Shown piece after piece: positions 2,614-18,049 of a DNA stretch of 26,037 nucleotides. The stretch's first letter is position 1. The number at the start of each line of letters is the position of its first letter. The position numbers were made by a program, and so were the translations under genes. A model generated the notes under the pieces. That model ran no database searches. It was not told the DNA's origin and saw only the letters and a list, made by a program, of their open reading frames with translations. Source of the stretch: a virus; the IMG/VR virus record IMGVR_UViG_3300025087_000281, positions 1 through 26,037 of that record. One strand, 5' to 3'.

Positions 2614-3238
2614 TCCACAAGTAGAAAATGGAATGACATCGCTCGCCAATGAGCTTGTAGAGGCTTTAGCAAAAACACAACTCTCTCCTTATGAGAGTAG
2701 ATTTTTATGGGCGTTATGGAGAAAAACGTATGGGTGGCATAAAACTGAAGACTGGATATCGGGAAGTCAAATTATGGAATTAACAGGATTAAGAAAACAA
2801 CACGTATGGAGAACAAAGAAAATACTTATTGATAGGCATATAGTAACCCCAAATGGTTATAAAATATCATTTCAGAAGGATTATACGCTCTGGATTGATA
2901 GCAAGGTAACCAAACGGGGTTACCATAATAAAGTAACCAATTCGGGTATTTCGGTAACCAATCGGGGTACGGAAGTAACCAATCGGGGTGGACACAAAGT
3001 AAACTATACAAAAGAAACTTATACAAAAGAAAGGGGAGGGATACTCAACCTTACCACTAATCAAAAAGCATTTCTTAAAAGGAAATATCCAAATGCAGAT
3101 ATAGATAAACTCTATGACAAATTCCGAGCATGGCAAAAAGCCAACGCTCGTTCGTATCCTAACGTCCTCGAAGCGTTTAAGGTTTGGCTTATTGAGGACA
3201 ATACAAAAAATAAACCTGGAGAGGTAGTGCGATTATGA
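2606..3238 (+). CDS. Replication initiation protein, lambda O-like
   Basis: This 210-residue protein should bind the phage origin and recruit host replication proteins. Residues 8-80 match the N-terminal winged-helix domain of the phage replication protein O family: GMTSLANELVEAL, then WALWRKTYGWHKTEDWIS, then a recognition-helix region (IMELTGLRKQHVWRTKKIL). Residues about 97-131 are a linker encoded by DNA iterons (VTNRG repeats). The C-terminal part (LTTNQKAFLKRKYPNADID onward) is probably the partner-binding domain. The ribosome site is GAGGAGA upstream of ATG 2606. As in lambda, the origin appears to lie inside the gene. No helicase, primase or polymerase gene is visible in the window. 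Confidence 0.8.
   Translation: MASPQVENGMTSLANELVEALAKTQLSPYESRFLWALWRKTYGWHKTEDWISGSQIMELTGLRKQHVWRTKKILIDRHIVTPNGYKISFQKDYTLWIDSKVTKRGYHNKVTNSGISVTNRGTEVTNRGGHKVNYTKETYTKERGGILNLTTNQKAFLKRKYPNADIDKLYDKFRAWQKANARSYPNVLEAFKVWLIEDNTKNKPGEVVRL
2843..3032 (+). repeat. Candidate replication origin: iterons plus AT-rich direct repeats
   Basis: Four 15-base iterons of the form GTAACCAATCGGGGT lie at 2906-2920, 2933-2947, 2954-2968 and 2975-2989. The last two are identical, the first differs at one base and the second is less exact. Start-to-start spacing is 27, 21 and 21 bases, about whole helical turns and multiples of three. A degenerate copy is at 2843-2857, and an inverted half-site GGTTAC at 2918-2923. 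Immediately after is an AT-rich stretch with TATACAAAAGAAA twice (3005-3017, 3020-3032). This is the lambda ori plan: iterons then AT-rich DNA inside gene O. Confidence 0.75.
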
Positions 3239-8844: not shown

Positions 8845-9014
8845 TAATAACTAAGTTCTATACAATGGTACCAGAGTGTTTGGAAAAACCGTTTGTATGC
8901 GGTCATAGAACCTGTAAACTATGGGCAGAAGGCTATCAAGTGTCTATGCGGAAGTGGTGGATATTCAAGTGGCTTGTGTGGGAAAAACCAACGGTAGCGA
9001 AAGGGAATTTATGA
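8841..9014 (+). CDS. Unknown 57-residue Trp- and Cys-rich protein
   Basis: This short frame is bounded by ATGA overlaps at both ends (8841-8844 and 9011-9014), which supports it. CLEKPFVCGHRTCKLW holds three Cys and a His; the C-terminal half has six Trp (RKWWIFKWLVWEKP). It may be a small zinc protein. A different frame downstream (see 9011) is also protein-like, so an old frameshift is possible. Confidence 0.5.
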   Translation: MIITKFYTMVPECLEKPFVCGHRTCKLWAEGYQVSMRKWWIFKWLVWEKPTVAKGNL

Positions 9015-9142
9015 AAAAACTTTTAAGTCTGTTGAGAGCAATCTTTCATATTTGCGAGCTTATGGAGTTTGGGTACTTAATTCGGAAAATCAACCATGGC
9101 ATGGTAGTCATAAGGAATGTAAAATATGCGGGTATTATTTAG
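9011..9142 (+). CDS. Unknown 43-residue ORF, reading frame uncertain
   Basis: ATG 9011 overlaps the previous stop and encodes MKKLLSLLRAIFHICELMEF then YLIRKINHGMVVIRNVKYAG. A second frame, open to TAG 9144-9146 but lacking ATG, gives VWVLNSENQPWHGSHKECK followed by ICGYY and looks more like a real protein. So this stretch either encodes the short basic peptide or holds a frameshifted remnant of a zinc-binding protein. Confidence 0.35.
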   Translation: MKKLLSLLRAIFHICELMEFGYLIRKINHGMVVIRNVKYAGII

Positions 9143-9173
9143 GTTAGTCTCCGCTCTGCGGAATAAATAAACT

Positions 9174-9377
9174 ATGAACAATAAACAAAAATTACGAATG
9201 GCACGAAGAATGTATCCGAAGCATAAAGCAAATGTGTTTAGTAGTCATCAATGGGAAGCCCGTAAAAAGGGAATAAAGGCACGGGTAGAGAAAATAGAGA
9301 ATATTGCACACGAAAGGGCGTTGGAGCGTAAAAAGCAAAAAGTAGTTTCCGCTATTTGGGAGAAAGGAACCCTATGA
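9174..9377 (+). CDS. Unknown highly basic 67-residue protein
   Basis: It is nearly all helix-forming and very rich in Lys and Arg: NKQKLRMARRMYPKHKANVF, WEARKKGIKARVEKIENIAH, ERKKQKVVSAIWEKG. A nucleic-acid-binding role is plausible from charge only. A short CCGC/GCGG hairpin (9151-9161) lies 12 bases before the ATG and no Shine-Dalgarno site is clear. It overlaps the next gene by four bases. Confidence 0.6.
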   Translation: MNNKQKLRMARRMYPKHKANVFSSHQWEARKKGIKARVEKIENIAHERALERKKQKVVSAIWEKGTL

Positions 9378-9547
9378 CCCACACCCGCCAAGACAAGAGA
9401 GTGAAGGAGTATTTAGAGGAAGCAAGGCAATTATTGTCTGATATGACACAAAAAGATATTCGGGTAGATTGAGAAGGAACAATTGAAATCGCCAAAATGA
9501 TCCAAAAAGAATATCACCGTGAGCATCACGCAAAGGAGGAAGTATGA
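9374..9547 (+). pseudogene. Small gene interrupted by an in-frame TGA
   Basis: ATG 9374, with AAAGGAACCCT upstream, opens a frame of 32 residues (MTHTRQDKRVKEYLEEARQL onward) that meets TGA at 9470-9472. The same frame stays open with similar charged helical composition (EGTIEIAKMIQKEYHREHHA) to TGA 9545-9547, which overlaps the next ATG. One base (TGG to TGA) would explain the break. The remaining choices are a 32-residue real protein, readthrough, or reinitiation at ATG 9497. TGA is a normal stop elsewhere in this window. Confidence 0.5.
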
Positions 9548-9699
9548 AAGACCCTAAAGAAATGACCGATGATGAACTTGAGCGAGAAATAGAACGAACC
9601 AAAAGTGTAACAGAGAGAGTTTTAGAGCAAGATGTGTATCATTGGATACTTATAAGAGAAGAAGGACGCAGATTACAAGAGGAGTTTACCTATGTCTAA
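9544..9699 (+). CDS. Unknown acidic 51-residue protein
   Basis: A strong AAGGAGG precedes ATG 9544. The protein is one charged helix (MTDDELEREIERTKSVTERV and DVYHWILIREEGRRLQEEF). Its stop overlaps the start of a 16-codon frame. Composition suggests a coiled-coil partner protein; function unknown. Confidence 0.55.
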   Translation: MKDPKEMTDDELEREIERTKSVTERVLEQDVYHWILIREEGRRLQEEFTYV

Positions 9700-9742
9700 T
9701 CGTTTTGTTATCAGCTTGGAATTATCAAAGGGGGTGAAATAA
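9692..9742 (+). CDS. Possible 16-residue leader ORF
   Basis: ATG 9692 follows GAGGAGTTTACCT, the ribosome-site pattern used by several genes here, and encodes MSNRFVISLELSKGVK. It ends three bases before the next gene. It may only feed ribosomes to 9746. Confidence 0.35.
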   Translation: MSNRFVISLELSKGVK

Positions 9743-9745
9743 ATT

Positions 9746-10072
9746 ATGGAGTATAAAAAACTTGCAAAAATAGTAGATAGATTATCGGGAAGAAAAAAGG
9801 AACATAAAATAAATTGTGCTCTTAATGCAAGAGGAGTAGCAGATGAGTTTGATGTGTTGGGTTGTACTTGTAAAAAAATAAAAAGTTACATAGATGATAA
9901 GAGAATAACTTTAAGAATACAAGAAAACCAATCACATCAAACTATTATGCTTCCAACTGCTTTAGCGAAACAGATTGTTAAAATTGCTAAATATATGCAC
10001 GTTACACCAGATGAATGGACAATAGGAAGGCTTTGGGGACAATTATCACGATTTAAGCATAAAGTTAAATAG
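9746..10072 (+). CDS. Unknown 108-residue protein with Cys cluster
   Basis: The N-terminal half is basic with a possible metal site (HKINCALNARGVADEFDVLG followed by CTCKK). The second half is a beta strand (RITLRIQENQSHQTIML) then helices with a tryptophan-rich end (DEWTIGRLWGQLSRFKHK). The stop codon sits directly against CTCCCC, the left arm of the structured RNA, so ribosomes ending here would disturb that fold. No family recognised. Confidence 0.6.
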   Translation: MEYKKLAKIVDRLSGRKKEHKINCALNARGVADEFDVLGCTCKKIKSYIDDKRITLRIQENQSHQTIMLPTALAKQIVKIAKYMHVTPDEWTIGRLWGQLSRFKHKVK

Positions 10073-10202
10073 CTCCCCCAACGAGGGAAGGTAGATTGAA
10101 GTTGGTCGGGAGTAAACGGCAATATATTAGGGCTTTCCTGATGTGTTGTGATAATCGCTCCCGCCCATCTTGAGTCTATCTCTCGTTGATGGCTGAGGGG
10201 AG
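10073..10202 (+). ncRNA. Long structured RNA element before 10210
   Basis: This gap is almost entirely base-paired. CTCCCC (10073-10078) pairs with GGGGAG (10197-10202). CAACGAGGGA (10079-10088) pairs with TCTCTCGTTG (10179-10188), all ten with one G-U. TAGATTGAAG (10092-10101) pairs with CTTGAGTCTA (10169-10178), nine of ten. GGTCGGGAG (10104-10112) pairs with CTCCCGCCC (10158-10166), eight of nine. A 45-base apical region holds a small AGG/CCT hairpin. The outer right arm is the ribosome site of ATG 10210. GTGATAAT in the loop (10148-10155) also matches ATTATCAC (10042-10049) in the upstream gene. Confidence 0.65.
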
Positions 10203-10209
10203 GGTTGAT

Positions 10210-10311
10210 ATGAAGAAAGGAAAAAAAGCACAGAGACATAATCGCCAACCTTTGAAAAATGACCCGAAACATTGGAATAAATATAAAAAACAAAAGAAGG
10301 AAAACCTATGA
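10210..10311 (+). CDS. Very basic 33-residue peptide gene
   Basis: ATG 10210 follows GGGGAGG (10197-10203), which the upstream RNA can hide. The peptide MKKGKKAQRHNRQPLKNDPK then HWNKYKKQKKENL has about half basic residues. Its stop overlaps the next ATG (10308-10311). It could bind nucleic acid, or serve mainly as the regulated entry point for the downstream gene. Confidence 0.5.
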   Translation: MKKGKKAQRHNRQPLKNDPKHWNKYKKQKKENL

Positions 10312-10580
10312 ATCAACCAAAGAATGATTGGCAACACAACGAAGTCTACAAAGTACTCCAAAGCCACTGTATTGCATCGGGGGCAGATAAACGGACACTT
10401 CCGCATTTCATTCAAACATTACTTCATTCCCAAGCCCGTGAGGTTTGCGAGAGCTTAGAGGGGATGAAAAGAAAAATACCACAACAACAAGGAAAGTGGA
10501 TGCCGATGGATGACAAGAATGATGGGTATAATCAAGCTCTCTTCCAAGCTATTGAGAGGATAAAAAAGGAATGGTACTAG
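10308..10580 (+). CDS. Unknown 90-residue protein
   Basis: AAGGAAAACCT precedes ATG 10308, which overlaps the previous stop. The protein is polar and helical: DWQHNEVYKVLQSHCIASGA, PHFIQTLLHSQAREVCESLE and NQALFQAIERIKKEWY. No motif. Its expression is probably coupled to the basic peptide and so to the RNA structure. Confidence 0.6.
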   Translation: MNQPKNDWQHNEVYKVLQSHCIASGADKRTLPHFIQTLLHSQAREVCESLEGMKRKIPQQQGKWMPMDDKNDGYNQALFQAIERIKKEWY

Positions 10581-10593
10581 GGGAAGGAGAAAT

Positions 10594-10800
10594 ATGTTGC
10601 AAGCCATTCTAAAGGGTGAAATCTATCATTGTCATCATTGTCATAAAAGCTATCGTTATCGGGGAGAAGCAACGGGATGTATGGGATCGGATTGTTGCCA
10701 TGGGGCCGATCAACAGATCACGCCGGATGAGGTTTGGAAAGAACATAAGAGAATACAAAAAATTTATCAGAAAGCGAAGAAAACTTTGAAATATACCTAA
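10594..10800 (+). CDS. Small zinc-finger protein, Cys/His-rich
   Basis: GGGGAAGGAG precedes ATG 10594. This 68-residue protein has YHCHHCHKSYRYRGEATGC then MGSDCCHGADQQ, an unusually dense Cys/His set likely to bind one or two zinc ions. The C-terminus is basic and helical (WKEHKRIQKIYQKAKKTLK). It ends 27 bases before the groES start, and the groES promoter follows it. A nucleic-acid-binding role is possible. Confidence 0.6.
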   Translation: MLQAILKGEIYHCHHCHKSYRYRGEATGCMGSDCCHGADQQITPDEVWKEHKRIQKIYQKAKKTLKYT

Positions 10801-10812
10801 AGGATTATGATA

Positions 10813-10821
10813 TGATATAAT
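10813..10821 (+). promoter_or_regulatory. Extended -10 promoter of groES, leaderless
   Basis: TGATATAAT ends at 10821, and exactly six bases separate it from ATG 10828. Transcription should start on the A of the start codon. There is no good -35 at normal spacing, as usual for extended -10 promoters. Confidence 0.65.
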
Positions 10822-10827
10822 ATACTT

Positions 10828-11142
10828 ATGAAGGAAATTACCCAAAAACTTCAACCAACTTCGGGATATATAATTATTGACCCATTAGAGAAAGATAATA
10901 AGAGTCAATATATTGCGGTACAAGACCCTATAGATAAGCCACACAAAGGAACGGTTGTTGCTATTGGTCCATCAAAAATAACTGATTATGGAATAAAATT
11001 AGAATCACCAGTTAAGGTTGGTGATTTTGTGTTATATAGTATAGCAGGATGTGAGTCGTTTAAGACATTATATGATGGTGATCCACGACATGAATTTATC
11101 GTATCCCCATTTAATAGAATATTAGTTATATTAGATAAATAA
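10828..11142 (+). CDS. groES: GroES-like co-chaperonin
   Basis: This 104-residue protein is the lid partner of the GroEL encoded next. LQPTSGYIIIDPLEKDN starts the first beta strands, residues about 20-38 are the mobile loop (KSQYIAVQDPIDKPHKG), VVAIGP and VKVGDFVLYSIAGCESF follow, and EFIVSPFNRILVIL closes the barrel. Bacterial GroES loops usually carry GGIVL-like residues; here the loop has YIAV (28-31), so docking to GroEL may be adapted to the phage partner. Two bases separate it from groEL. Its own promoter predicts a leaderless transcript. Confidence 0.85.
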   Translation: MKEITQKLQPTSGYIIIDPLEKDNKSQYIAVQDPIDKPHKGTVVAIGPSKITDYGIKLESPVKVGDFVLYSIAGCESFKTLYDGDPRHEFIVSPFNRILVILDK

Positions 11143-11144
11143 AT

Positions 11145-12725
11145 ATGTACTACACAGACTTAAAATATACAAAAGATGCCCGTGAAGCTATTATGAGAGG
11201 AGCAGAGAAGGTTTTTAATTTAGTATCAGCTACTCAAGGACCACGAGGAAGGAATATAGCGATCAATAAAGGTTTTGATATAGAGATTCTCCATGACGGT
11301 CTTAAAGTTTCACGATTTGTTTCACCGGAAGATAAGTTTGAAGCAATTGGTGCAAGTATTATTCGGGAAGCAGCAGAGCAACAGGCGGTCAAAGTAGGGG
11401 ATGGAACAACACTGACGATTGTATTGGGTTATGAGATAGCCCGTGAAGCTATGATTTTGATTGATAGTGGGATAAACCCCATGTCATTGACGAATGGATT
11501 AGAAAAAGGACGTACTTTATTACTCAACGAAATACAGAGATTATCAAAACCAATTCAGACAGAACAGGAAAAAATACAGATTGCAACAATTTCCAGTGAA
11601 GATGAGATTTTGGGAAAAATGATTGGTGAAACATATCACAAAATAGGAGTCGACGGGGTAATTACTGCTGATGAGTCAAAATCACATGAAACCACCATAG
11701 AACATCAGGAGGGCATATCTATAGATCATGGGTTTCTTTCTCCATACTTTATTACTGATCCACGAAGCCTTACGGCAACACTGAAAGATGCACATATTCT
11801 CTTTTTAGAACGGGAAATTGAAGATGTCTATGAGTTTTTGCCGTTTGTTGAGAATGTATTAAAACCAAATAATATACGGAATTTATTTATTATAGCAAAA
11901 GATGTAAAAGGTACGGCGCTGGCTTCTCTTATTGAAACGAAGCGAAAGGGAATGATGAACATTCTTTGTGTGAAGTCTCCTTCGTTTGGAAAATATCAAC
12001 GGGAAATGTTAGAGGATATTGCAACTATGTGCGGGGGAATGGTTATTGATGAAGCATCGGGAAAAAAACTTAAAGATATTACTCTTGAGTATTTAGGATA
12101 TGCAGAAACAGTGAAATCAAGCAGAGACTCAACGACTATATTGGAAAACAAGGGAACAGTTAAAAAGATAAAGGACAGAATAGCATCTATACGTCATTTA
12201 TTGGAAGATCCCGAATCAGACTTAGATCACGAGAAGTTAAAAGAGCGTCTTTCTAAAATGACCGGTGGGGTATATGTAGTAAAGACTGGTGGCTCTACGG
12301 AGTTGGAAATGAACGAGAGGAAGGAACGGGTGGATGATGCCATTCTTGCTACGAAAGCGGCGATAAAGGGTGGTATTGTCCCTGGTGGTGAAGTGGTTTT
12401 ATTAACAGCGAGAAACGTATTAAAATTTACAAATACGGATGAGGAATATGCGTTTAGAATACTTAAAAGTGCATTAGAAAAACCGTTTGATAAACTTCTT
12501 CTAAATGCAGGATTGAACCCTGGGTACTATATGGCGAAGCTGGAAGATAAGCCTTTCGGTTGGGGAGTTGATGTAACGGATGCACAAACAAAAAATCTTA
12601 TAAAGTCCGGTATTATTGATCCTGCCATTGTTGTTAGTGAAGCATTAAGAAGCGCTATATCAGTTGCAATACTTCTTGTTACTTCAGATGGCGCATCAGT
12701 TATTATTGAAGAAAAGAAGGGATAA
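11145..12725 (+). CDS. groEL: GroEL-like chaperonin
   Basis: This 526-residue protein is a full-length group I chaperonin. The ATP site is intact: TQGPRGRN (30-37), Asp51 in HDGLKV, GDGTT (85-89) with Asp86, and catalytic Asp398 in ERVDDAILATKAA. The apical domain keeps FLSPYF (197-202), used for substrate and GroES binding. The equatorial glycine motif is PGGEVVL where most GroELs have AGGGVAL, so Glu416 replaces a Gly. The usual C-terminal GGM tail is missing (ends IEEKKG). It is read from the groES transcript. Together they should fold phage proteins in the cytoplasm, perhaps capsid subunits. Confidence 0.92.
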   Translation: MYYTDLKYTKDAREAIMRGAEKVFNLVSATQGPRGRNIAINKGFDIEILHDGLKVSRFVSPEDKFEAIGASIIREAAEQQAVKVGDGTTLTIVLGYEIAREAMILIDSGINPMSLTNGLEKGRTLLLNEIQRLSKPIQTEQEKIQIATISSEDEILGKMIGETYHKIGVDGVITADESKSHETTIEHQEGISIDHGFLSPYFITDPRSLTATLKDAHILFLEREIEDVYEFLPFVENVLKPNNIRNLFIIAKDVKGTALASLIETKRKGMMNILCVKSPSFGKYQREMLEDIATMCGGMVIDEASGKKLKDITLEYLGYAETVKSSRDSTTILENKGTVKKIKDRIASIRHLLEDPESDLDHEKLKERLSKMTGGVYVVKTGGSTELEMNERKERVDDAILATKAAIKGGIVPGGEVVLLTARNVLKFTNTDEEYAFRILKSALEKPFDKLLLNAGLNPGYYMAKLEDKPFGWGVDVTDAQTKNLIKSGIIDPAIVVSEALRSAISVAILLVTSDGASVIIEEKKG

Positions 12726-15568: not shown

Positions 15569-16047
15569 CTTATCGTACCATAAGGGGACAGAATGTATTG
15601 ACGGTGTTGTATACGAAGGCGCAGGATGAAAAACAGTTAAAAATGTTTTTTTGTCCTTACACGAAAAATATTACAACGCAATATCAGGGAGATATTTCAG
15701 CAATTTATCCTGGGTTTGACTCAACAGAAACGCCACAAGTAATGATTCGTCCTCAACGCATGGATTATGGATATAATATTCAATATTCGTTTCGGGAAGT
15801 AGAAAAACATGGGGATGAGGTCCAATTTTGGATACAGGATCAGTATTTCCAAAATATTCCAGTTAAGACATATTATTGTTTCAATTGTCAGGCTCCTCAG
15901 CTTTATTTTAGTGATGATAAGGTGGTAGGATATCAAAATAAGTCGGAAATACTATCAGGATCATCATATTTGTGTATCAATCCTTTATGTAGAACGCATT
16001 TTATGTTTTTAGGAATTGTTAAAATTCAAAGCATTCATGATGTATAA
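15565..16047 (+). CDS. Unknown 160-residue protein between terminase and portal
   Basis: It overlaps the terminase stop by four bases. The C-terminal half has two Cys pairs (CFNCQAPQLYF and LCINPLCRTHFMF) that may form a zinc ribbon; the N-terminal half is beta-rich with many Tyr and Gln. Its stop lies inside the portal promoter. Between TerL and portal one may find head-maturation or packaging accessory proteins, but none is recognised here. Confidence 0.6.
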   Translation: MTYRTIRGQNVLTVLYTKAQDEKQLKMFFCPYTKNITTQYQGDISAIYPGFDSTETPQVMIRPQRMDYGYNIQYSFREVEKHGDEVQFWIQDQYFQNIPVKTYYCFNCQAPQLYFSDDKVVGYQNKSEILSGSSYLCINPLCRTHFMFLGIVKIQSIHDV

Positions 16048-16048
16048 T
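16043..16048 (+). promoter_or_regulatory. -10 box giving a leaderless portal transcript
   Basis: TATAAT (16043-16048) is followed by six bases and ATG 16055, the same spacing as the promoters of groES, 18236 and 22076. TG lies immediately before the box instead of one base away, so it is a weaker extended -10. It overlaps the previous stop codon. Confidence 0.5.
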
Positions 16049-16054
16049 ACGAAT

Positions 16055-18049
16055 ATGGAAGTAAATAGTACCAACCGTTTTAGTGCAGAAACAGGTGTAT
16101 TAGCGACACTTTCTCCTCTCAACATAGAGATAGATGATAAAAAATTGTTGACCTATATTTGTGAATTAGAGAAACAAGCCACAACACACTGGAACTCTCC
16201 TGAAATAAATTTGAAGAATCGAAGAGCACAATTGATTAAGTATCTTTTTGGCAGACAACTCATAGGGAAAGAATTGAAAGAATACGATTCAGAGTTTTTG
16301 GATAACGTAATTTATGAATTTGAGGGTATCTTAAAATCTCTCGCAGTATCAAAGATGCCTGATATTACTGTTAAGGCTGGGGGAATTGGAAAGAGTGAGG
16401 AACGAGAAATGACCGCAGAACTCCTTACGAAGTTTTTTGATAAATATATAGATAGCGATCAAAACAAAAAAGACTTGGGTATGATGTTTAAGCACATGCC
16501 TATTTACCTTATCGCAGCCAAAAAGTATCGGTGGGATGCTACAAAAGATATGGGCGATATCGTTGAGGAAGTAATAAACCCTGATAATATTCTTTTAGAT
16601 CATACTGCTATAACATCAAATCCTGACGAAATGTTATTTATCATTCATTATGTAGAAAAGACTGCGAAAGAGTGGTCCATGTTATTTCCAGATAAAGAGG
16701 AAGAAATTAAGAAAGAGGTGGCAAAGCACAATCCTATTTTATCGGGAAATTCAAATGAAGATGTACTGATGGCTCAAAAGGTTAAAGTTGCCGAGTGTTG
16801 GTATGATTGGTTTGATAAAGATGAAGACTTTGATCCGAAGAATCCTAAATTTACTTTTACGTCCGGTGTAACGTGGAAACTTTCTAAAGAAGTATTGCTT
16901 GGCAAGAGTAAAAATCCAAATTGGGATTACGAAGGTCACAATGTAACTACGTTGAACGGTCAGCCTGTTTCAGCAGATATGATGGAACAGATAGCACTTA
17001 CAGGTCAACAACCCCAAGGATTTGAGATTAAGAAAGTGTTTAATAACTACTTCAAGTATCCTAAAAAGCCTTTTATTTTTATGACGTTCGATCAATTTCT
17101 TCGGAGTGCGATAGATGAAACGTCCCGTATTGAACAGGTTATACCACTTCAAAAGTCTATAGATGATGTAGAGCGCCAGACTGATTTTATGGTGAAACAC
17201 CATAAAGGAAAACATATATGGGGATCAGATTCAGGCGTTGATAAAAAGAATATAAAGAAAATGGACATGAATAATCCTAATGTTGACGTGGTGGTAAAAG
17301 GAAATCCACGACTTGTGCATGATTTTATCCAGCCTGTCATGCCTCCTGGCGAAATGTTTGTCCATATTCGTGATAGAAGGGATCGTGTGTTTGCCAAAGT
17401 AGGCGCACATGGGGCTACAAGGGGTGAGATAACGACAGATGTGGCAACCACCAATCAAATATCACGGGAGGCAGATTTTACGAAGAATGATGATTTAGTA
17501 AACGATACTATACTTTTTGTATCTACAGAGTCGATAAAAGCACGTTTACACATGATGAAACTTCGTTATACAGAGGAGCATTTTAAGCGTATAGCGGGGA
17601 CTGAGGAGGGTAAATATCTTCATCTAAGGCTTACGAATGATTCTATAGACGATGGAATGGAGGTTGTTGTTAAGGCTTCAACGACTGATAAGTTGCGAGC
17701 TGAGAGAAATGCACAGGGCATGGCATCATTACAAATGATTGATCCTTATTACTACTACAAAGACCTTAACATTCCTGATCCGCAAGGGAGAGCAGAGGCT
17801 TTGTATTTATATAGCTCAAACCCAGCTCTTTGGTATGAGAAGGTTGTATTAGGGAAAGATATAACCGCTTTGGCTCAACAGGTAACACGATCAACTGGTG
17901 TTATCCCGCCGGTTTCTCCTGTGGCTCCTGAAACTCCCGCAATGATACCTAGTCCTGTAGATACTACAAATATAGCTACTCAACCCAGCGGAGGGCAGAA
18001 TATGATTCAAAAGGCTATGGGAGGAATTAAGAAATTATTTGGGAGGTAG
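16055..18049 (+). CDS. Portal protein
   Basis: Read from ATG 16055 (664 residues); in-frame starts at 16016 and 16037 would add up to 13 residues, but 16055 has the leaderless promoter spacing. Position after the terminase, length and the long acidic and helical body fit a portal, the ring through which DNA enters the head. Segments such as FEGILKSLAVSKMPDITVKA, PDNILLDHTA, DRRDRVFAKVG and HGATRGEITTDVATTNQ resemble portals of podovirus-like and metagenomic phages. The C-terminal 60 residues are Pro- and Thr-rich then basic (MGGIKKLFGR). Confidence 0.8.
   Translation: MEVNSTNRFSAETGVLATLSPLNIEIDDKKLLTYICELEKQATTHWNSPEINLKNRRAQLIKYLFGRQLIGKELKEYDSEFLDNVIYEFEGILKSLAVSKMPDITVKAGGIGKSEEREMTAELLTKFFDKYIDSDQNKKDLGMMFKHMPIYLIAAKKYRWDATKDMGDIVEEVINPDNILLDHTAITSNPDEMLFIIHYVEKTAKEWSMLFPDKEEEIKKEVAKHNPILSGNSNEDVLMAQKVKVAECWYDWFDKDEDFDPKNPKFTFTSGVTWKLSKEVLLGKSKNPNWDYEGHNVTTLNGQPVSADMMEQIALTGQQPQGFEIKKVFNNYFKYPKKPFIFMTFDQFLRSAIDETSRIEQVIPLQKSIDDVERQTDFMVKHHKGKHIWGSDSGVDKKNIKKMDMNNPNVDVVVKGNPRLVHDFIQPVMPPGEMFVHIRDRRDRVFAKVGAHGATRGEITTDVATTNQISREADFTKNDDLVNDTILFVSTESIKARLHMMKLRYTEEHFKRIAGTEEGKYLHLRLTNDSIDDGMEVVVKASTTDKLRAERNAQGMASLQMIDPYYYYKDLNIPDPQGRAEALYLYSSNPALWYEKVVLGKDITALAQQVTRSTGVIPPVSPVAPETPAMIPSPVDTTNIATQPSGGQNMIQKAMGGIKKLFGR

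Follow-up and report, generated by a model that had tools for sequence, protein, structure and literature searches.

A long, strand-specific RNA hairpin predicted between two genes of an uncultured phage may act in cis on the downstream gene

Gene 10210 of this phage is separated from the gene before it by an intercistronic gap of 137 bases (10073-10209), and the question is whether this gap encodes a structured RNA and, if so, what that RNA does. The window analysed here is the whole record of 26,037 bases, in which every recognised gene lies on the + strand. These genes encode an endolysin, an O-like replication protein, GroES (10828-11142, +), GroEL (11145-12725, +) and a small and a large terminase; a long ORF occupies 16016-18049. 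The ORF upstream of the gap (9746-10072, +; 108 aa) has no PHROG or Pfam match and belongs to no known family. Downstream, gene 10210 (10210-10311, +) encodes a small basic protein of 33 aa without a match in a Pfam search, and its stop codon forms an ATGA overlap with the ATG of a 90-aa gene (10308-10580, +), which family searches placed in no known family. ORFs on the minus strand across the region had no family match.

The MFE fold of the + strand is a single long, rod-like hairpin of about 130 bases (10073-10202) with 48 pairs, seven of which are G-U. An outer stem of six pairs (10073-10078/10197-10202) encloses a stem of ten (10079-10088/10179-10188), which is followed by a 3-nt bulge and a stem of six (10092-10097/10173-10178). 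Beyond a 1x1 mismatch come three pairs (10099-10101/10169-10171), another 1x1 mismatch, three more pairs (10103-10105/10165-10167), a third 1x1 mismatch and seven pairs (10107-10113/10157-10163). A 5x7 internal loop (left side 10114-10118) then leads to a tip stem of 13 pairs (10119-10131/10137-10149). The original prediction had described nested stems over 10073-10202, which the MFE fold reproduces, and the tip stem is an addition to that list. The 42 pairs at 10079-10188 make up the rod proper, which folds independently of the outer stem and is set off from it on the 3' strand by an 8-nt bulge, ATGGCTGA (10189-10196). This unpaired bulge contains ATG 10189, in frame with gene 10210, which could give a 40-aa version of the protein, although a clear Shine-Dalgarno sequence (SD) is lacking there.

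The two arms of the outer stem lie exactly where they had been placed from the letters. The left arm, CTCCCC (10073-10078), directly follows the stop codon TAG (10070-10072) of the upstream gene, so that the hairpin's 5' end adjoins that gene. The right arm, GGGGAG, together with the next GG (10197-10204), is the SD of ATG 10210, with GGAGG at 10199-10203, 6 nt from the start codon.

The fold is far stronger than expected by chance. The stretch 10070-10205 reached -67.2 kcal/mol against -41.1 +/- 3.7 for shuffled sequences (z -7.06), with none of 200 shuffles as low, and the rod alone (10079-10188) reached -56.1 kcal/mol (z -8.4; 0/1000 shuffles). With wider flanks, the comparison that had been proposed as a check (10030-10215) gave a z of -5.45. 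Per base, the other long gaps of the window reach at most about half its stability (-0.49 kcal/mol for this gap against -0.26 for the next best), and the GC content of the rod region is 0.47, compared with 0.39 in its surroundings.

The fold also depends on the strand. The minus strand of the gap folds to -39.4 kcal/mol (z -2.7), compared with -67.2 for the + strand, and the reverse complement of the rod to -29.0, compared with -56.1. Against the seven G-U pairs we saw only one A-C opposition, beside the internal loop, a comparison with some bias, since G-U pairs are chosen by the folding program itself. As a neutrally decayed palindrome would yield equal numbers of both, this excess points to selection on the + strand RNA. 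The weak reverse complement and the seven G-U pairs among 48 likewise suggest a fold built for the + strand RNA, beyond a mere DNA palindrome. A structured + strand RNA is strongly supported, and the hairpin is, by prediction, a real, strongly folded and strand-specific intercistronic phage RNA.

We next consider its relatives. The view that the hairpin fits no named RNA class held for Rfam 15, where nothing matched at the gathering score; at permissive settings, the best weak match (E 1.8) was to a microRNA precursor model, far under its cut-off. At blastn sensitivity, the stretch 9000-11500 had no DNA relatives among 50,697 phage records, and a search of phages and plasmids for DNA relatives also returned none. 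No relatives of proteins 9746, 10308 and 10594 were found. A 19-base pattern had 0 matches in viral contigs; the 111 stretches matched by a 14-base pattern were chance hits, with no match to the RNA model in 80 of them. The large terminase (TerL) is shared with about 20 viral contigs at 46-100% identity, and three more matched it weakly (22-31%); none of these 20-odd contigs has the RNA or the genes beside it, and a TerL search of genome contigs found no match. Since no homologue of the RNA was found, there is no covariation evidence.

Other strong hairpins do occur in this phage group. In the related phage L006, whose TerL is about 62% identical, a + strand hairpin (8990-9105; -53.7 kcal/mol, compared with -32.2 for the minus strand) lies at a sulfotransferase gene (PF03567), located between the terminase and the next large gene, and keeps its start region closed. 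Opening this region costs 16.0 kcal/mol, the highest value of 120 gene starts. The hairpin has a terminator-like inner stem and a T-run, with its right arm at the sulfotransferase start. As its sequence is unrelated and its inner shape different, it is an analogue at most. Another related phage, L013, has a long, nearly perfect intergenic inverted repeat with G-U pairs (2949-3005). Within the window, a terminator-like hairpin at 2014-2067 has a T-rich tail adjoining ATG 2068, where opening the start region costs 15 kcal/mol.

The position of the outer stem had led to the proposal that it hides the ribosome site of gene 10210. Pairing of the SD was indeed predicted: 10197-10202 lies in a stable helix with 10073-10078 at a probability of about 0.8-0.9 (0.81-0.88 for the left arm). 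Its opening cost was 3.4-10.3 kcal/mol, depending on context, in folded stretches starting upstream of 10073. This is in the upper range for gene starts in the phage group (median 4.6, 95th percentile 9.9 kcal/mol; n = 120), but not special among them. When 10050-10078 was shuffled, the SD was as closed in 189 of 400 cases, with a mean cost of 4.89 compared with the observed 4.9. This is likely because the SD also pairs within gene 10210, where CAACCT, about 45 bases downstream, can pair with GGGTTG at the SD. In the model, a ribosome footprint over the upstream stop lowered the opening cost by 1.6-7.7 kcal/mol in 24 of 24 contexts, though the pairing inside gene 10210 often still leaves 2-5 kcal/mol. 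The outer stem is therefore predicted to be present with a modest effect on the SD, and we put translational coupling forward as a hypothesis.

A switch had also been proposed, in which ATTATCAC (10042-10049) pairs with GTGATAAT (10149-10156). The two segments are complementary as described, but a nested pairing is some 30 kcal/mol worse, as forcing it lifts the MFE from -97.5 to -67.2 kcal/mol, and we rejected the switch in its nested form. Readthrough of the stop codon at 10072 was ruled out, as the frame reaches a TGA after 8 codons.

Tentatively, the best explanation of these predictions is a cis-acting intercistronic hairpin that couples gene 10210 to translation of the upstream gene. Folding of the 137-nt gap into a rod would bring the stop of 9746-10072 near the start of gene 10210, while the outer stem would partly cover the SD. 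By covering the left arm, ribosomes that terminate at 10072 would loosen the outer stem. Translation of gene 10210, and through the ATGA overlap that of gene 10308, would then depend largely on translation of the upstream gene. Coupling is favoured by the placement of the two arms, the left one adjoining the stop codon and the right one lying within the SD, and the start-closing hairpin of L006 counts in its favour as well. Against it, a far shorter stem would suffice, and a 42-pair rod asks for another reason. What the analysis shows is a predicted, strand-specific fold far beyond chance that sits just between the stop codon and the start codon, with the SD predicted to be paired; from this we infer a regulatory role, with coupling as its route.

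Processing by an RNase III-type activity or a role in mRNA stability is a less likely reading. Here the rod would be cut or act as a barrier, splitting the upstream mRNA from that of genes 10210, 10308 and 10594 and possibly freeing the SD. The long, irregular, intergenic duplex, with its 1x1 mismatches, asymmetric internal loop and lack of a terminator tail, would suit this, as would the rod's own extreme stability, which does not depend on the SD stem; against it, there are no homologues that could show conserved cutting features. Duplexes processed between genes or before a start are known from the intercistronic RNase III sites of T7 and the lambda N leader.

Less probable again is a stand-alone structured RNA (a trans-acting sRNA, a decoy or a protein-binding RNA) that merely adjoins gene 10210. 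The strength of the rod by itself, its raised GC content and the lack of an Rfam family fit this idea, whereas the outer stem takes up the SD, promoter-like matches occur only at chance level and the RNA has no terminator of its own. Following the stem, the 3' base continues into GGTTGATATG, and a terminator search found no match; without a U-run there, the hairpin is not an intrinsic terminator, which also ruled out an attenuator. That the rod founds a new phage RNA family and has a protein-binding or trans-acting function of its own, its joining with the SD being a by-product or feedback, seems improbable.

Similarly doubtful is a timing switch of the T4 type, in which mRNA reading through from upstream would hide the SD and mRNA from an internal promoter would lack the left strand. 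An extended -10-like motif, TGTGATAAT (10147-10155, +), lies partly in the internal loop and is suitably placed as a possible weak promoter; transcripts would start near 10162, dropping the left strand, and T4 e, soc, 49, I-TevI and mobE/segB provide a documented arrangement of this kind (PMC3014915, PMC2988022). However, one-mismatch matches to the motif are about as frequent in the window as expected by chance (48 against 46.6), no -35 was seen, the clearest promoter-like sites of this phage read TGATATAAT, and in the shorter transcript the start region is predicted to stay closed, at about 8 kcal/mol. Evidence for an internal promoter is thus weak. As a separate observation, TGNTATWAT followed after 5-8 bases by ATG was found nearly always on the coding strand, 21 times in the forward and once in the reverse direction over 16 sequences. 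These sites include 10813, 18221 and 22061 in the window, 6765 in L005, 2918, 9668 and 9979 in L006, 1152, 3891, 6609 and 11149 in L008, 5846 in L010, and 4434 and 11235 in L012. They look like leaderless-mRNA promoters common to the phage group, for example right before GroES.

A decayed palindrome in the DNA, or an insertion resembling a MITE, with no function as RNA would explain a long, single-copy inverted repeat without relatives, but is hardly probable given the strand bias of the rod and its G-U pairs, the absence of a second copy from the window and the lack of a match to the RNA model in 19 related contigs.

A role in cis control or processing of the next gene's mRNA is likely. As a single case, the hairpin contributes a very strong and strand-specific RNA structure between cistrons of an uncultured, chaperonin-carrying phage lineage; if coupling or processing holds true, it would reveal how phages of this kind adjust the expression of small genes within a single long operon. 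Overall, we read the hairpin as a cis-acting element between phage cistrons whose general kind is already known, and we rank coupling narrowly above processing of the RNase III type. It resembles the RNase III sites of T7 and the stem in the lambda N leader in being a long, irregular duplex that lies between genes of a phage or precedes a start, although it has no sequence relation to them and is known from its predicted fold. The mRNA hairpins over the SD of T4 e, soc, 49 and I-TevI share with it a 3' arm holding the downstream gene's SD and a long operon (PMC3014915, PMC2988022); it differs from them in its great length (48 pairs), and the internal late promoter that would free its SD is only a candidate. 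Coupling has precedents in f1 VII/IX, MS2 coat/lysis and rpmI-rplT; it weakens as the gap between stop and start widens, and can be reduced by structure immediately beyond the upstream stop (PMC12548453). As in f1 VII/IX and MS2 coat/lysis, a structure surrounds the downstream start with the upstream stop near one arm (PMC12548453), but here the gap is 137 nt, the whole hairpin lies between the genes, and the coupling is a prediction.
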